From contig CP046062.1 in assembly GCA_009676745.1 (NCBI GenBank), positions 146,001-210,000 of the forward strand: a DNA stretch of 64,000 nucleotides, given 5' to 3'. The DNA comes from Leuconostoc mesenteroides subsp. mesenteroides (GTDB lineage: Bacteria > Bacillota > Bacilli > Lactobacillales > Lactobacillaceae). This document shows, piece after piece, positions 304-55,636 of this stretch. Below the pieces are notes generated by a model. The model did not search any database. It was not told where the DNA came from and saw nothing but the letters and a program-made list of their open reading frames with translations. The translations under genes and the position numbers were made by a program. Each line of letters opens with the position of its first letter. Position 1 is the stretch's first letter.

Positions 304-2013
304 TTACATTGTAGGTATCATCAATTCTAGTTTATTTAACGCTCTTTTTGTTGATTCACCATGAATTAACTTATTACCAAATGTCGCAGCATGTTCTGCC
401 ATGATATGAAATTCTTCAGAAGTAATGCCACTAATTGCATTAGAAACTTCTGACAATGATTCAATAGTAACACCCAACTGATATGACTCAATTATTTCAG
501 CAATTGCGGAATGTTTCCAAGCGATTACAGGTAACCCAGAAGCCATATATAAACTGAATTTATATGGCCAATTCCACTTTGTATAATTTTGGCGATATAC
601 GTTATCAGCATCTTCGTCCCATATTAGTCCGAATCCCTTGTCTAATTTCTGTGCCAAATCTTCTGCTAGAATAAAGCCACCATCATGTAAATTATCATTA
701 GTTATATTAATGTTTGAAAAATTTTTCTCACCAAAGACAGTTAGATCAAAATCAATATTGTTGATATCAGGAAACTTAGAAAGAGAACCGGCATACACTA
801 CTTGTAAATCATAACTAGCTGGTTCAACGTTATCGGTATGGTTAATTCTAAAATCGTAAGGCTCCAAAGGAATGACATTTTTCAATGATACACCGGCAAT
901 TTTATTTAGAGCACTACTAAATTTTTGAGGAACAATATTAGCATCGAATCTAGTTAAAACACGTTTGTCTTCTTCAGAATCGTACCCACTTAGTTTACTA
1001 ACATCGTACCGAATTAATGTTAAATCGTGAATAAAAGAGGCAATAAACACGCCCTTATCATGGAACCAACTAAGCATAGCGTTTTCTAATTTTGCTGAAC
1101 ACATTGGATATTGCCAAATAACCAGATCACCTGTGCTAACATATTTACAATGTCTTTCTAATTGTTCAATAATCCAGTGGACTTCATCAATATAAGGTTC
1201 TTTGTCAAGTGAAATTTGATGGTACCCTACTAACGAAGCAAATAGCGCTGCGTCATTTCTTGGTTTCCAGTGATTTTTATCGTCAAATCTTATCATCCAC
1301 TTTTTTCGATTCTTTGATGATTTATAAAATGCCAATGTATTATTATGTTCAAAACTACCTTTTTCAACTCTTCGACTCTTAATATGACTATTTAACGCTG
1401 GTAATCCATAACTAATAATTTCTGTAACATTCTGATTTTGATCGATTATTTTATAAAATTCTTCAAATTGCCAATCCCAATATGAATTATAAAAAGTACT
1501 TTCTCCATATTCAGTTAACATCATTCCGGTTTCAGTTAATTTATTATCAATTCTTTGCCAATAAATTTCTATTTTTTTATTATTTCCAACAAACCTACTG
1601 GTTATTGGATCACTCTGATCATCATAAACAATTTGTTGTCCAATCCCATTATTAAAGGGATGATCAACACTAATTATTTTTTGATTGTCATCATAATTAT
1701 AAACAGTCTGTACATGCTGATCATTTCCTGATAAAAAAATCTTATTCACTATTTGATTATTAAAATTTTTAAATTCGAATTGATGTTTCTCGGAAGCTGA
1801 ACTATAATTCAGAATTTGATATTTTGTAAAAGGTAAATCTGTTAATTCGATGTGATTACTGCTGTTACGAATAAAATCATACAAGTTTATTTCATTTAAT
1901 CGAGTACTGTATTCTATTTCTGAAGTCCATGTTATGAATAAAATTGGTTCAGTTTGAAATTTTTGCCAATTTTCAAGCTCTTTATTTATTTCTTTTGCTA
2001 TAACTACTTTCAT
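304..2013 (-). CDS. GtfB-like/Gtf3-like fused glycosyltransferase, adhesin O-glycosylation
   Basis: This 569-residue protein has two parts. Residues about 1-235 are rich in Tyr, Asn and Asp with beta-strand character and resemble the N-terminal (DUF1975-like) region of GtfA/GtfB adhesin glycosyltransferases. Residues about 236-569 carry Gtf3-family signatures: GDLVIWQYP (295-303), FIHDL (327-331), AGSLSK (408-413), GFGLIWD (460-466), WPYKFSLYMASGLPVIAW (482-499). In streptococci GtfA-GtfB adds GlcNAc to Ser/Thr of serine-rich repeat proteins, and Gtf3 extends the sugar. Here the GtfB-like and Gtf3-like parts appear fused. Its start lies one base after the stop of the upstream GtfA-like gene, so the two are probably co-translated. 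The Gtf3 call is firm; the N-terminal assignment is weaker. Confidence 0.72.
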   Translation of the reverse strand: MKVVIAKEINKELENWQKFQTEPILFITWTSEIEYSTRLNEINLYDFIRNSSNHIELTDLPFTKYQILNYSSASEKHQFEFKNFNNQIVNKIFLSGNDQHVQTVYNYDDNQKIISVDHPFNNGIGQQIVYDDQSDPITSRFVGNNKKIEIYWQRIDNKLTETGMMLTEYGESTFYNSYWDWQFEEFYKIIDQNQNVTEIISYGLPALNSHIKSRRVEKGSFEHNNTLAFYKSSKNRKKWMIRFDDKNHWKPRNDAALFASLVGYHQISLDKEPYIDEVHWIIEQLERHCKYVSTGDLVIWQYPMCSAKLENAMLSWFHDKGVFIASFIHDLTLIRYDVSKLSGYDSEEDKRVLTRFDANIVPQKFSSALNKIAGVSLKNVIPLEPYDFRINHTDNVEPASYDLQVVYAGSLSKFPDINNIDFDLTVFGEKNFSNINITNDNLHDGGFILAEDLAQKLDKGFGLIWDEDADNVYRQNYTKWNWPYKFSLYMASGLPVIAWKHSAIAEIIESYQLGVTIESLSEVSNAISGITSEEFHIMAEHAATFGNKLIHGESTKRALNKLELMIPTM

Positions 2014-2014
2014 T

Positions 2015-3541
2015 TTAATATATCTTTTCTAGCATTTTTTGCCATAGCTGCCATACACTTTCTTCACTATATTTCTCTATAGTGAATTGACTGTTTAACG
2101 CATATTTTTGCAATATTCCTTCTTCTTTTTCTTCAAATAGTTCAATAATTCGCATAGCCAAATATTGTGTATCATTAGCAGCAATCAAGTCTCCGTTGAC
2201 ACGGTTTTCAATAATAGCATCAGGACCATAATCAATGTCATAACAAATGGATGGTGTTTTACCTAGCTGTGCCTCAAAAAGAACCATGGGTAATCCTTCA
2301 TGAATAGATGTTAGTAAATGTAACTTGGCTTCTGACATACGCTTTTTCATCCCTTCATTATCAATGAGTCCCTTCAACTTAATGAAGTCCTGGGCATTTT
2401 TCTTATTAATTAATGCCTGTAGCTCAGCTTTTTCAGGACCACTTCCCCATATTTCTAAATGTATTGTAGGTACACTTTGATGAGCAAATACCACGGCCTT
2501 TATAGCATGATCAATTTGTTTTGTTTTATCAAGCCTGGCTGAGACAATAATCAAACCTTCTTCTTTGTCTTCCCAGTTAATTTTTGAATATTCTTCAATA
2601 TCACGTGTGGAAAACCAATTTTCAGGAATAGCGTAAACATTTGAATTTTCTGTCCTTCTGAACAAATCTATATCTTGCTTTTGTCTTGTCGTTAAGGCAA
2701 TTATGCCACTATATCTCTCCCGATTAAGAATAGGATAACTATATCCTATTCTTATTGGTTCATTAATCGAAGTATGATTTACTTGAATATTATGTAACTG
2801 CATTAACAGCTTAATATTTGGTTTCTCATTTAGTTTACTTATTTTGGCTATTGTAGTGGTTTTGAATAAATCAGCAATAATAAGATAATTTTTGCAATTA
2901 GATGTGTAATAATCCAAAGCAGCTACATTCAAGTCATCTAAATTATTAAAAACTTGTACTTGATCATTTTGACGAATCCAATCAATGCGCCGAACTTCAT
3001 TGGTAGCCGTAAAATAGTAAATAATTTTTTTGCTACCACTACTTTTAAAATGTTCTCTGCGTGCAATGTATCTCTCATTTCTATTCCCATCATAACTAAA
3101 ATACGAAATCGTTGATAAATAACCACGCCAATCATATGAATCAGTGCGTACAGGTACGTTTTTACTATTATAGTATGTAACACTTAGTAGACGACCGTCT
3201 GGGTATAAGTTCCATAAAAAATACGATTTATTGCGAGAAACTCCTTTTTTATTTTTAAAATCAATTGTGTATTGCTTTTCTACCTGTGATATTAATTCTT
3301 TAAAGGCATCTTGCTCATTCACAAATATATTGTCAGCTAATATATCTGTGATATCAAGAAAATGATTGAGTTGGTCAGGGAAGTGATGCATTAAATAATA
3401 ACGATTAGTTATAAAATAATTTAATGTCACAACAGTTACATTAAACTTGTGATTCTCAAATAACTTCACTCTCTTATGAACAGCATAACTAGCACCTGAA
3501 AGTGATTCTGCATAATAAGTGTTTAAAAAAATAGATTCCAT
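2015..3541 (-). CDS. GtfA-like GT4 glycosyltransferase
   Basis: A 508-residue GT-B glycosyltransferase. The N-terminal Rossmann half carries an inserted beta-meander (about residues 105-190, rich in YxxxG and Tyr-Asp motifs), as in GtfA of adhesin glycosylation systems and in TagE-type teichoic acid glucosyltransferases. The C-terminal GT4 half shows SARLDKTKQ (334-342), GSGPE (366-370) and an E-x7-E motif in SIHEGLPMVLFEA (E415/E423). The likely role is first-sugar transfer onto Ser/Thr of the adhesin encoded just upstream. A teichoic acid transferase is the main alternative; synteny with the repeat adhesin and the Gtf3-like partner favours protein glycosylation. Gene order is adhesin, this gene, GtfB/Gtf3-like gene. 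Confidence 0.75.
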   Translation of the reverse strand: MESIFLNTYYAESLSGASYAVHKRVKLFENHKFNVTVVTLNYFITNRYYLMHHFPDQLNHFLDITDILADNIFVNEQDAFKELISQVEKQYTIDFKNKKGVSRNKSYFLWNLYPDGRLLSVTYYNSKNVPVRTDSYDWRGYLSTISYFSYDGNRNERYIARREHFKSSGSKKIIYYFTATNEVRRIDWIRQNDQVQVFNNLDDLNVAALDYYTSNCKNYLIIADLFKTTTIAKISKLNEKPNIKLLMQLHNIQVNHTSINEPIRIGYSYPILNRERYSGIIALTTRQKQDIDLFRRTENSNVYAIPENWFSTRDIEEYSKINWEDKEEGLIIVSARLDKTKQIDHAIKAVVFAHQSVPTIHLEIWGSGPEKAELQALINKKNAQDFIKLKGLIDNEGMKKRMSEAKLHLLTSIHEGLPMVLFEAQLGKTPSICYDIDYGPDAIIENRVNGDLIAANDTQYLAMRIIELFEEKEEGILQKYALNSQFTIEKYSEESVWQLWQKMLEKIY

Positions 3542-3577
3542 TATCTTCCTTTCAATAATTCATTTAATTTTATGTAC

Positions 3578-3607
3578 AAAAATCCATTTATCATTTAATG
3601 GATTTTT
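3578..3607. terminator. Bidirectional-looking hairpin between adhesin and glycosyltransferase genes
   Basis: An 11-bp perfect stem, AAAAATCCATT (3578-3588) with AATGGATTTTT (3597-3607), and an 8-nt loop. On the minus strand it follows the adhesin stop and precedes the GtfA-like start. It could act as an attenuator that gives more adhesin mRNA than transferase mRNA. No clear promoter is visible between hairpin and transferase gene. Confidence 0.7.
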
Positions 3608-3632
3608 TTATTGTCTCAATTGTACGTAATAT

Positions 3633-6326
3633 TTACTTATTTTTTCGACTTTTGAAAGTTATACCAACAATACCTAAAAGCATTCCTAATAATGACAATA
3701 CAATACTATCACCTGTAGTGTTTGCATCCGTATTGGGTAATACCGTAGCTGCTCCTCTATCAACATTTTCATTCATTACATTAGTACTTGATTTACTTTT
3801 TGTAGTGCTTTTTGGGGCACTTCTGGGCGTACTTTCGGGGGCGCTTTTGGGTACACTCTCTGATCCGCTTTTGGGCGTACTTTCAGGGGTACTTTCCGGC
3901 GTGCTTTCTGGTGCACTCTCTGGTCCGCTTTCGGGGGCGCTCTCTGGCGTGCTCTCTGGCGCGCTTTCAGGGGCACTCTCAGGGGTACTCTCTGGCGTGC
4001 TTGGCGCGCTTTCTGGCGTACTTTCCGGCGTGCTTTCGGGGGCGCTTTCTGGCGCGCTTTCTGGCGTACTCTCCGGCGTGCTTTCGGGGGCGCTTTCTGG
4101 CGCGCTTTCTGGCGTACTCTCTGGCGTACTTTCCGGCGTGCTTTCGGGGGCGCTTTCTGGCGTACTTTCCGGCGTGCTCTCTGGCGCGCTTTCCGGCGTA
4201 CTCTCTGGCGCGCTCTCTGGCGTGCTCTCTGGCGCGCTTTCGGGGGTACTCTCTGGCGCGCTCTCTGGCGTACTTTCAGGGGCACTCTCTGGCGTGCTCT
4301 CTGGCGCGCTTTCGGGCGTGCTCTCTGGCGTACTTTCAGGGGTACTTTCCGGCGTGCTCTCTGGCGCGCTTTCGGGGGTACTCTCTGGCGCGCTTTCTGG
4401 CGTACTCTCTGGCGCGCTTTCGGGCGTGCTCTCTGGCGTACTTTCGGGGGCGCTTTCGGGCGTACTCTCGGGGGCACTTTCGGGGGTACTCTCTGGCGCG
4501 CTTTCGGGCGTGCTCTCGGGGGCACTTTCGGGCGTGCTTTCCGGCGTGCTCTCTGGCGCGCTTTCGGGCGTGCTCTCTGGGGCGCTCTCTGGCGTACTTT
4601 CGGGGGCACTCTCTGGCGCGCTTTCTGGCGTGCTCTCGGGGGCGCTTTCGGGCGCGCTTTCTGGCGTGCTCTCGGGGGCGCTTTCTGGCGTGCTCTCTGG
4701 CGCGCTTTCGGGGGCACTCTCTGGCGTACTTTCAGGAGCGCTTTCTGGCGTACTCTCGGGCGTACTTTCCGGCGTGCTCTCTGGCGTACTTTCGGGCGTG
4801 CTCTCGGGTGTACTCTCCGGCGTACTTTCGGGGGCGCTTTCTGGCGTACTTTCGGGCGTACTCTCGGGCGTGCTTTCGGGCGTGCTCTCTGGCGTACTTT
4901 CGGGGGCACTTTCGGGCGTGCTCTCTGGCGCGCTTTCGGGGGCACTCTCTGGCGTACTTTCAGGAGCGCTTTCTGGCGTACTCTCTGGCGTACTTTCGGG
5001 CGTGCTCTCTGGTGCACTCTCGGGGGCGCTTTCTGGCGTACTCTCAGGGGCACTTTCGGGCGTGCTCTCAGGCGCGCTTTCTGGCGTACTTTCGGGGGCA
5101 CTTTCGGGCGTGCTCTCCGGCGCACTTTCTGGCGTACTTTCAGGGGTGCTCTCCGGCGTACTTTCGGGGGCGCTTTCTGGCGTACTCTCTGGCGTACCTG
5201 GTGTCTGTATATCCCAACGATGTGTTTCGCCACCAGTAACATTAACATTAGCTCCCACAATGTTACCGTCAACATTAACACCAACGTTAATAGTTGCCTC
5301 AGGTGCTAAAACACTTCCCAATAAGCGCCCACTAGAAATATTAATGCTATTTTGATAAGAACCAAAGTTCCATACAACATGGTTTGGCATACTATGATTT
5401 TCACTATTTTGACGAACAGTTTGCCCATTGCTATATTCATAATTAATTTTCGTCTGAATCCACGCATCATTAGATGGCATATTTTTCACATTAAAAATGA
5501 CTGTTGGACCCGAAAGTTCAGCAGACAATCCTTTTACTGTAATATCTTGAGGACCAGCCAATTTAGCATAATCAATATCAACATAAATAAACTTTTGATT
5601 TTTATCCACATTCGAAACGTCAATAAATTGTTTATTCATATCTGAATAGTCACTAATAACATGTTCCGTTTGATTTGACACACTGTACATATCTGCCTTC
5701 AATTTTAGTGAAGAAAAATACGTATCAAAATCAATGTACTTATTATTGTTAGCATCTTGATAAGTATTGTCTTTTGTCAATGTGCTAACACGTCCACCAT
5801 TAATTTCAGTTTGCCCAGCAGAATTTTTCTCAATTTTAATTGATTCACCTAAAATAGCAACAGAATTTTCAGCACGAAATGCACGATCATTCAACGTTTT
5901 ATTGTCATTAATACTTTGAATGTAAGATACGTCGTTTGTTGTTGTATTGTAATTATTAGAACGCGTACCAAAGTCTCTATTAGCATCAATCAGATTTTGA
6001 ACAGCGATATTGCCATTAACATCTGCGCCTAACTTGGCATTTTGTGCAAAAATACTAAATAGGGATGCTATTCCTAAAGCATTATTGTTATCAATATACT
6101 TGATATTACTAAAATTCTTCGTATCATTTAAAATAAAATCGGGTGCTACATTAACATCATTATTTTGTTGTACTTTTGCTGCATATACTGTTGTACTTCC
6201 AAAATGTAATGTATTATTATCGACTGTGCCTAAAGCTACAATAGCTATGCCCACAGTCACAGAACCAATAATCCACTGTTTACCGGATTTATACATTTTA
6301 AAATGATTATATCTATTAGTTTCCAT
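3633..6326 (-). CDS. LPxTG-type surface adhesin with KxYKxGKxW signal, choice-of-anchor A domain and PES(A/T) repeats
   Basis: An 897-residue wall-anchored protein. Residues 10-18 (KMYKSGKQW) match the KxYKxGKxW motif of long signal peptides found on glycosylated, often accessory-Sec-exported adhesins. A hydrophobic stretch follows and cleavage is likely after VYAA (about 50). Residues about 60-370 look like a choice-of-anchor A (collagen-binding-like) domain, ending in GSVLAPEATINVG and GGETHRWD. Residues about 376-840 are tandem PEST/PESA tetrapeptides, a proline-rich stalk with a Ser or Ser/Thr in every unit, suited to O-glycosylation. The C-terminus has LPNTD (863-867) instead of canonical LPxTG, a hydrophobic helix and a KSRKNK tail. 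Two glycosyltransferase genes follow. The ligand is unknown. AAGGA sits about 9 nt before the ATG. Confidence 0.88.
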   Translation of the reverse strand: METNRYNHFKMYKSGKQWIIGSVTVGIAIVALGTVDNNTLHFGSTTVYAAKVQQNNDVNVAPDFILNDTKNFSNIKYIDNNNALGIASLFSIFAQNAKLGADVNGNIAVQNLIDANRDFGTRSNNYNTTTNDVSYIQSINDNKTLNDRAFRAENSVAILGESIKIEKNSAGQTEINGGRVSTLTKDNTYQDANNNKYIDFDTYFSSLKLKADMYSVSNQTEHVISDYSDMNKQFIDVSNVDKNQKFIYVDIDYAKLAGPQDITVKGLSAELSGPTVIFNVKNMPSNDAWIQTKINYEYSNGQTVRQNSENHSMPNHVVWNFGSYQNSINISSGRLLGSVLAPEATINVGVNVDGNIVGANVNVTGGETHRWDIQTPGTPESTPESAPESTPESTPESTPESAPESTPESAPESTPESAPESTPESAPESTPESAPESAPESTPESTPESTPESAPESTPESAPESAPESTPESAPESTPESTPESTPESTPESTPESAPESTPESTPESTPESTPESTPESTPESTPESAPESTPESAPESAPESTPESAPESTPESAPESAPESTPESAPESAPESTPESAPESTPESAPESTPESTPESAPESTPESAPESTPESAPESTPESAPESTPESTPESAPESTPESAPESTPESAPESTPESTPESTPESTPESAPESTPESAPESTPESAPESTPESAPESTPESAPESTPESAPESTPESTPESAPESTPESTPESTPESAPESAPESTPESTPESAPESAPESTPESTPESAPSTPESTPESAPESAPESTPESAPESGPESAPESTPESTPESTPKSGSESVPKSAPESTPRSAPKSTTKSKSSTNVMNENVDRGAATVLPNTDANTTGDSIVLSLLGMLLGIVGITFKSRKNK
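3810..5195 (-). repeat. 12-bp tandem repeat array encoding PES(A/T) stalk
   Basis: About 115 in-frame copies of a 12-bp unit (CCN-GAR-AGY/TCN-RCN on the coding strand), much more GC-rich than flanking DNA. Units alternate mostly between PEST and PESA. One 6-bp in-frame deletion near 3990-4000 gives a shortened APSTPE junction; near the wall-anchor end the units degenerate (PKSG, SESV, PRSA, TKS). The unit has no stop in several frames, which creates long overlapping spurious ORFs. The array is a likely site of copy-number change. Confidence 0.95.
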
Positions 6327-54121: not shown

Positions 54122-55636
54122 ATGACATCACGTAAAATCCCTTCAATCATGGGAACACAACATCCAGATAACGCTAATGCGCCATTCTGGGAAAGTTCTC
54201 AGCAACCATTTATCAGTGCCTATCGAGAAACCGGTGAAGCATTTGAAAACTTTAATGAACTAAATGTCGATGAGTATATGTGGGATTGGGAAGGTAAACA
54301 TGCTGATGCAGCTGTCATTGATCGCTTGTTTAGCACAGAGTATGATTATTTCAAAGATCATCAAATCGGTCGTGACAAGTTTTTAACTTTCCGTTTCCCT
54401 AATATTTGGGAAGAGAAAGGCTACAACTTAATGCAAGCAATGACTGCCTTCTTAAGTTCTGAAGACTTTGCCCATGACCTTGGCTTCTCTCGACCATTAT
54501 TTGAAGCTATTCTGCCAATGGCACAGCGTGCAGACCAAATTCTGAAAATGCAAATTTTGTTTGAAAAGTTGGCTAACTTCAAATCAGCAGAATTTACTCG
54601 CTCTGATAAAAACACGCCCTATATTGAAATGATTCCTCTTTTTGAGGATTTTGAAACACAACTACATGCACCTGAAATTTTAAAAGAGTATTTGACTCTC
54701 CACGAAGAACATTTTGGCTTCCGACCAAAGTACATGCGAGTATTCTTAGCTGGATCGGATTCTGCCTTAACAGCTGGATTTATGAGTTCAATTACTGGTA
54801 ATAAACTGGCAATTGCGCGACTTCATGAGTTTGCTGCAGAAGAGAACATTGAAATTTTCCCAATTTCAGGAACCGGATCAGCAATTTTCAGAGGTGGTTT
54901 ATCTCCTCAGCGTATCGATCGCTACGTCACAGAATTCCCAGGTGTTCGCACAGCAACGGTTCAATCAGCATTCCGTTACGACTTTCCTATTGAAGAAGTA
55001 CAAAAAGGTATCGCTGAATTAAAAGAAAAATTGCCTGTTGCAGAACCATTAAAAATATCTCTTGATGATCAAAAGATTTTAACTGAGATAGCTGAAGAGT
55101 CTGCTAAGTTTTATTCTAATACGTTAGATAATTTGATCCCTAGTATGCAAGCAATTTTCAAGGCGTTCCCAAAGCGTCGTGATCGACGTCAACACGTTGG
55201 TGTCCTCGGTTATTCACGTTCAGTTGACGGCATTGAATTACCAAGAGCGATTAACTTTACTGGCTCATTCTACTCAGTGGGAGTACCACCAGAATTTATT
55301 GGTTTTGGACGCGCATTGAAGCATTTAGACGCTGATCATTTGAGCGTATTTGTTCGCTCATATCCTAGCATGAGTAAAGATTTTAATGAACTAGCTCGCT
55401 TTGTTAATATGGATGCTTTACAAATTCTAAAAACTCAAAATGCTGCTTGGGCTGAAGTTGAAGAAGATATTCTCATTATGCAACGTATTTTCAAGTTTGA
55501 AATTGGCCCTCAAACACGCGAAGAACAACAACATGCTGAAATAGCACTTCAAGTTGTGCAATTTAAAGAAGGTGCTCCCATTGCCATTACAGCCCTTATT
55601 AACCGCATGGCACAATTACGACACTTCCTTGGATAA
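54122..55636 (+). CDS. ppcA: Archaeal-type phosphoenolpyruvate carboxylase
   Basis: A 504-residue PEPC of the short archaeal type (about half the length of the bacterial form). It begins MTSRKIPSIMGTQHPDNANA and continues with YMWDWEGKHADAAVIDRLF and the catalytic-region GSGSAIFRGGLSP-type sequence seen as ISGTGSAIFRGGLSP. It carboxylates PEP to oxaloacetate, an anaplerotic source of aspartate. This form is known in Leuconostoc, Oenococcus and Clostridium perfringens as well as archaea, suggesting old horizontal transfer. AAGGAG precedes the ATG. Confidence 0.95.
   Translation: MTSRKIPSIMGTQHPDNANAPFWESSQQPFISAYRETGEAFENFNELNVDEYMWDWEGKHADAAVIDRLFSTEYDYFKDHQIGRDKFLTFRFPNIWEEKGYNLMQAMTAFLSSEDFAHDLGFSRPLFEAILPMAQRADQILKMQILFEKLANFKSAEFTRSDKNTPYIEMIPLFEDFETQLHAPEILKEYLTLHEEHFGFRPKYMRVFLAGSDSALTAGFMSSITGNKLAIARLHEFAAEENIEIFPISGTGSAIFRGGLSPQRIDRYVTEFPGVRTATVQSAFRYDFPIEEVQKGIAELKEKLPVAEPLKISLDDQKILTEIAEESAKFYSNTLDNLIPSMQAIFKAFPKRRDRRQHVGVLGYSRSVDGIELPRAINFTGSFYSVGVPPEFIGFGRALKHLDADHLSVFVRSYPSMSKDFNELARFVNMDALQILKTQNAAWAEVEEDILIMQRIFKFEIGPQTREEQQHAEIALQVVQFKEGAPIAITALINRMAQLRHFLG

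Follow-up and report, generated by a model that had tools for sequence, protein, structure and literature searches.

A repeat adhesin and two putative glycosyltransferases of Leuconostoc mesenteroides form a cassette that probably does not need accessory Sec

The analysed stretch of Leuconostoc mesenteroides subsp. mesenteroides DNA (64,000 nucleotides, the window) carries three minus-strand genes transcribed in the order adhesin (3633..6326, 897 aa), GT1 (2015..3541, 508 aa) and GT2 (304..2013, 569 aa), with gaps of 91 bp between adhesin and GT1 and 1 bp between GT1 and GT2. An earlier note made from this sequence had described an adhesin followed by two glycosyltransferases on the same strand, and all open reading frames were recovered at the positions which it gave. 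The adhesin was assigned from the open reading frame list and from Pfam matches over the cut-off (PF19258, PF20597). Profiles, fold comparison and alignment classified GT1 as a GT4-type glycosyltransferase of the SdgB/GtfA/TarM fold, while profiles and a predicted model indicated an N-terminal beta-meander domain joined to a GT113 transferase in GT2. The earlier note had labelled the two enzymes GtfA-like and GtfB/Gtf3-like; neither the GtfA nor the GtfB sequence model was reached.

An A+T-rich hairpin followed by a T run was seen by eye between the adhesin and GT1 genes (3581-3609; unlisted by the terminator scan); it could lower transcription of the transferase genes relative to the adhesin gene. 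The promoter and terminator scan returned 41 promoter-like sites against 22.3 expected and 3 terminator-like sites against 6.1 expected, nothing of which was decisive. An antisense open frame of 585 aa runs through the stalk region on the plus strand (3598-5355) and is probably an artefact, because the 12-base repeat produces it. Elsewhere in the window, an archaeal-type phosphoenolpyruvate carboxylase is encoded at 54122-55636 (TIGR02751, 617 bits against a cut-off of 146.05). None of the 28 plasmid records matching GT2 reached at least 80% coverage of it; for GT1, 8 of 176 plasmid records covered at least 80%, every one at less than 60% identity.

The adhesin starts with a KxYKxGKxW signal peptide region (residues 7-36, 6219..6308, minus strand; PF19258, 35.3 bits against a cut-off of 23.6), which confirms the signal that had been read from the sequence alone. 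It is followed by an ice-binding-like adhesive head (residues 84-369, 5220..6077, minus strand; PF20597, 81.3 bits against 23.8). The proposed adhesive head is therefore present, but its description as a choice-of-anchor A domain found no counterpart among NCBIfam models up to an E value of 1. A comparison of the first 375 residues with solved structures gave no sequence match at E ≤0.1. Five of the 31 relatives of the head were read; two carry PSSE stalks and three other stalks (one named Limosilactobacillus). Some relatives (P0035 and the adhesin encoded at L061:1201-3837) have an additional short repeat, PVSAT or PTSEVLPVSATPTSE, that separates signal from head; it is reminiscent of the first repeat region in serine-rich repeat proteins and does not occur in the window adhesin.

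The stalk extends with short interruptions over residues 379-833 (3828..5192, minus strand) and its PES(A/T) character, noted earlier, was borne out by a count of 110 PES units (64 PEST, 45 PESA and 1 PESG), of which 99 form the longest unbroken run. The 481 stalk residues include 120 Ser and 70 Thr, and residues 375-855 of the adhesin carry a net charge of -106. The stalk DNA has a GC content of 0.63, compared with 0.32 for the head and 0.31-0.32 for the transferase genes. The PES DNA pattern matched the strain's own genome 105 times, always on one strand, and the 100 matches listed all lay inside the adhesin gene; a control pattern gave 0 matches in the same genome. The wall-anchor region (residues 863-897, 3636..3740, minus strand) consists of the degenerate sorting motif LPNTD, a hydrophobic stretch and a basic tail; TIGR01167 scored 13.1 bits, below the NCBIfam cut-off of 15.9. 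The relatives that were read have LPDTG, LPKTD or LPDTN at the equivalent place.

The predicted structure of GT1 is closest to SdgB, which modifies adhesins with Ser-Asp repeats in S. aureus, and GT1 resembles SdgB more than TarM both in sequence (85.7 versus 68.8 bits) and in fold (29.2 versus 23.8). The best two NCBIfam matches were SdgA (159.8 bits) and SdgB (132.8 bits), both below the cut-off of 800 of these "exception" models. The GtfA model (TIGR02918) gave 94.5 of the required 574.6 bits, and the GtfB model (TIGR02919) matched neither GT1 nor GT2 up to an E value of 1. GT1 shares with the SdgA/SdgB family a predicted GT-B fold with an inserted DUF1975-like beta-meander (residues 92-198, 2948..3268, minus strand; model me335db74c7cf) and the putative Arg/Lys donor residues. 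R336, K341, E415 and E423 are invariant among 15 aligned sequences, the window included. The meander has a net charge of +9 across residues 90-199; among the 15 aligned sequences, 10 have a positively charged, 3 a neutral and 2 a negatively charged meander.

GT2 is composed of an N-terminal domain (residues 1-235, 1309..2013, minus strand), in which the predicted model mc3bff5e6df90 shows a ten-strand meander at residues 67-175, and a GT113 (Gtf3/GtfC) domain (residues 236-566, 316..1308, minus strand) supported by profile and structure matches. D330, K413 and K485 of GT2 occupy the positions of Gtf3 D101, R179 and K246, residues whose roles have been described (PMC12809243). The GT113 fold with its catalytic Asp and donor-binding residues places GT2 in this family, but GT2 departs from the single-domain size of about 330-370 aa (332-354 aa in solved GT113 chains) by approximately 235 extra N-terminal residues. 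The fusion of meander and GT113 was found only in Leuconostoc. GT113 genes have been counted in all strains of a study on L. pseudomesenteroides, and no fusion is described in the available part of that account (PMC9875049). The 50 rows listed from a Foldseek search with GT2 comprised only GT113, SdgB, GtfA, TarM, Asp/Gap and GtfA/B-complex chains. The VIA alignments among the rows listed cover mainly residues 234-569 (from about 230 on), and this restriction to the C-terminal part is no evidence of a new N-terminal fold. In profile comparison the N-terminus showed weak similarity to GtfB (47%, against 1.9% for GtfA, 0.5% for GT1 and 0.2% for GT113), a comparison of little power, as the N-terminus of GT1 itself reached just 34.5% with GtfA. 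The meander of GT2 is not basic (net charge -5 in the window, -7 to +6 across 16 rows). That GT2 is a plain GtfB was ruled out by the missing GtfB model match together with the GT113 domain and its active-site residues.

The statement of the earlier note that no accessory Sec genes flank the locus holds for the 64-kb window. Extended to the whole genome it fails: the proposed check for secA2, secY2 and asp1-3 revealed a complete accessory Sec locus at C1:91463-112386, about 34 kb from the cassette, so that a genome free of accessory Sec had to be discarded as an explanation. This locus encodes SecY2, Asp1, Asp2, Asp3, SecA2 (1064.5 bits against a cut-off of 930), GtfA (TIGR02918, 601.7 bits), GtfB (TIGR02919, 395.8 bits), a GT113 enzyme and, as cargo, a serine-rich adhesin of 2665 aa. 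A 316-aa open reading frame between its GT113 and adhesin genes (L003:11620-12570) is possibly a regulator, judging from weak helix-turn-helix matches under the cut-off.

The earlier note had also assumed that KxYKxGKxW signals usually accompany accessory Sec, and this does not apply to the genus. Such signals were over the cut-off in all 19 Leuconostoc genomes, whereas SecA2, SecY2 and GtfB were so in 8, 7 and 9 of them, respectively; 10 signal-bearing genomes lack SecA2 over the cut-off, and genome G301, in which SecA2 lies in pieces, is an eleventh. Within the strain's own genome both adhesins, one GH70 and two GH68 enzymes carry the signal (four KxYKxGKxW proteins were scanned; L011, L012 and L013 are three further ones). 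As the signal is universal here, occurs in 10 genomes without SecA2 and is found on GH70 and GH68 enzymes as well, it does not point to accessory Sec and was rejected as a sign of it in Leuconostoc. Close to genes for ArdA and conjugation, the 39,649-bp contig C2 of the same genome encodes a KxYKxGKxW protein of 375 aa (L009); this contig is of the same size as CP042405.1, a plasmid of L. mesenteroides CBA3628 from kimchi, and 100% identical to it over the 3,105 bases compared.

Complete or remnant GT2 fusions were detected in 5 of the 19 Leuconostoc genomes, namely the strain's own (G000), G016 (L. gelidum match), G302 (L. kimchii match), G301 (broken) and G202 (N-terminal part), and are absent from the other 14. 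In all five loci a P/S/T/E-rich stalk adhesin precedes GT1 and GT2 in this order. None of SecA2, SecY2 and GtfB is over the cut-off in G016 and G302, and seven genomes have SecA2 over the cut-off and no intact cassette. G016 matches L. gelidum KCTC 3527, presumably the same type strain as LMG 18297T. The whole adhesin is visible at two loci, the window and G302; because the contigs of G016, G202 and G301 end inside the stalk, G302 is the one genome lacking accessory Sec in which signal, stalk and transferase pair can be seen together. According to a published comparison, L. gelidum LMG 18297T has no accessory Sec and L. kimchii C2, which is not the strain of G302, has a partial system (PMC4895993).

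The stalks consist of PES[TA] in the window, PESV/PEST in G202 and PSSE[TV] in G016, G301 and G302, and the G302 adhesin differs in its head, which combines an L-type lectin with MucBP. The latter three cassettes share a neighbourhood of deaminase-like and folD-like genes (by eye), and a CsbD-like gene follows GT2 in the window (27.2 bits against a Pfam cut-off of 40) and, about 130 bp behind the shortened GT2, in G202 (by eye). Stalk adhesins with the transferase pair hence occur at two genome places and, in the two whole adhesins, with differing heads; therefore the pair tracks the type of stalk rather than the head or the genomic position. In G202 an intact GT1 is accompanied by a GT2 (L063:6409-7119) of which only the N-terminal domain is left, with a start of its own and a length of 222 aa; because the GT113 domain is lost there, the second step appears to be dispensable in G202. 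The dN/dS values of G202 versus the window (0.24 for the shortened GT2, 0.13 for GT1) fit kept function or recent loss alike. The broken GT2 of G301, an 890-contig draft, is perhaps an assembly error.

By the features tested, the cassette is neither an accessory Sec locus nor a member of the SdgA/SdgB system. Like SdgA/SdgB and the Sdr/Clf proteins of S. aureus, it encodes two transferases next to an adhesin that is anchored in the wall and contains a long, acidic repeat with Ser, and it has no accessory Sec linkage; in its predicted structure GT1 shares the SdgB fold with the inserted DUF1975-like domain, and it has the same donor residues. Unlike this system, its GT1 is far under the SdgA and SdgB cut-offs, its second enzyme is a GT113 fusion rather than an SdgA paralogue, PES(T/A) or PSSE(T/V) takes the place of the SD repeat, and its adhesin has a KxYKxGKxW signal. 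With the accessory Sec loci of serine-rich repeat proteins (SRRPs; Fap1, L. reuteri SRRP) it has in common a GtfA-type first and a GT113 second enzyme, the KxYKxGKxW signal and the wall anchor; it differs by the absence of SecA2, SecY2 and Asp, by unmatched GtfA and GtfB models, by the extra domain fused to GT113 and by a PES stalk in place of serine-rich repeats, and the genome keeps its real locus of this kind separately. The parts are of known kinds; new is the combination of an SdgB-like GT1, a meander-GT113 fusion, a PES/PSSE stalk and a KxYKxGKxW signal without accessory Sec. Among the literature matches listed, titles and abstract openings contained no published account of this combination.

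We consider it likely that the locus is an adhesin glycosylation cassette which has no need of accessory Sec and works in the manner of staphylococcal SdgA/SdgB. SdgB and SdgA are thought to act in the cytoplasm, are encoded adjacent to adhesin genes, add sugars sequentially and have no accessory Sec cluster (PMC3794999). As they are the nearest working model, and as a second-step role of GT113 enzymes is known from Fap1 glycosylation (PMC5207161) and from L. reuteri (PMC12809243), we infer a sequence in which GT1 acts as the priming and GT2 as the extending enzyme, before housekeeping Sec secretes the adhesin and sortase links it to the wall. In the cytoplasm, GT1 would grip the acidic PES stalk via its DUF1975-like meander and attach to Ser/Thr of the stalk a first sugar that is probably GlcNAc. 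The GT113 domain of GT2 would then extend it by Glc or GlcNAc, while the meander domain of GT2 may also serve the acceptor or the GT1 partner. The glycosylated pre-adhesin would exit through the housekeeping Sec translocon by means of its KxYKxGKxW signal and be anchored at LPNTD by sortase, so that the ice-binding-like head would be displayed on a rigid stalk that probably resists proteases. What the analysis itself establishes is the order of the genes, their domains and predicted folds, the active-site residues, and a three-gene unit that is conserved and also occurs without SecA2, SecY2 and GtfB over the cut-off; the identities of the sugars, the sequence of steps in L. mesenteroides and the route of export are drawn from the analogy.

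The earlier suggestion of an O-glycosylated adhesin exported by another route is thereby partly supported: the cassettes of G016 and G302 and the KxYKxGKxW signals of genomes without accessory Sec speak for such a route, the full accessory Sec of the strain itself against it. The adhesin might in this strain leave through that system, which would serve the serine-rich adhesin too, with the cassette as an unlinked module of cargo and transferases. The complete locus in the same genome and the KxYKxGKxW signals of both adhesins agree with this, as does the accessory Sec or aSec-like route proposed for KxYKxGKxW levansucrases of Leuconostoc (PMC12215647), but we regard it as unlikely, considering the two cassette-bearing genomes without SecA2 and SecY2 over the cut-off, the spread of the signal beyond accessory Sec, also to GH70 and GH68 enzymes, and the fact that GtfA, GtfB, a GT113 enzyme and a cargo are already encoded within the accessory Sec locus.

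Alternatively, GT1 and GT2 could O-glycosylate proteins in general, with many surface proteins as substrates and the neighbouring adhesin as just one of them. GtfA and GtfB of L. plantarum, a DUF1975-type pair from the same bacterial family, are needed for glycosylation of Acm2 and others and are described as a general system outside a secA2 cluster; both are DUF1975 and GT-domain enzymes, and the available part of this account describes no GT113 fusion (PMC5796085). Moreover, SdgA and SdgB also modify ClfA and ClfB, which are encoded elsewhere (PMC3794999). A general role is nevertheless improbable, since the pair adjoins a P/S/T/E-stalk adhesin in five of five loci, the GT2 fusion is missing from 14 of 19 genomes (GT1 being searched for in the strain's own genome) and the listed PES-pattern matches of this genome are confined to the adhesin gene. 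That both enzymes modify teichoic acid or another wall polymer next to a chance adhesin neighbour is very unlikely. TarM, the wall teichoic acid transferase, likewise combines a GT-B fold with a DUF1975-like domain, but it has a polymer acceptor and is less similar to GT1 than SdgB is; furthermore, Gtf3/GtfC, the nearest kin of the catalytic part of GT2, extend protein sugars (PMC12809243, PMC5207161), and the linkage to stalk adhesins is kept at two different genome places.

For GT2 one can speculate further, at odds we rate below even, that it is a chaperone-transferase fusion with a GtfB-like acceptor clamp and a second-step GT113. GT1 and GT2 would then be a two-protein machine that binds, primes and extends the stalk without handing over the chain, replaces the GtfB chaperone and frees the system from accessory Sec. 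If so, G202, where GT1 is intact and only the clamp of GT2 remains, would represent a natural form of the system that adds one sugar.

The adhesin glycosylation cassette proposed here would decouple the accessory Sec translocon from the pre-export glycosylation of repeat adhesins, two things which are often joined in Gram-positive bacteria. Leuconostoc spans genomes with the cassette only, with accessory Sec only, with both and with neither; because all four combinations occur in one genus, exit of a cytoplasmically glycosylated KxYKxGKxW protein through housekeeping Sec would be open to direct testing in a bacterium used for food. In addition, the GT113 fusion may lend itself as a compact means of attaching glycans of two sugars to Pro/Ser/Thr/Glu repeats.
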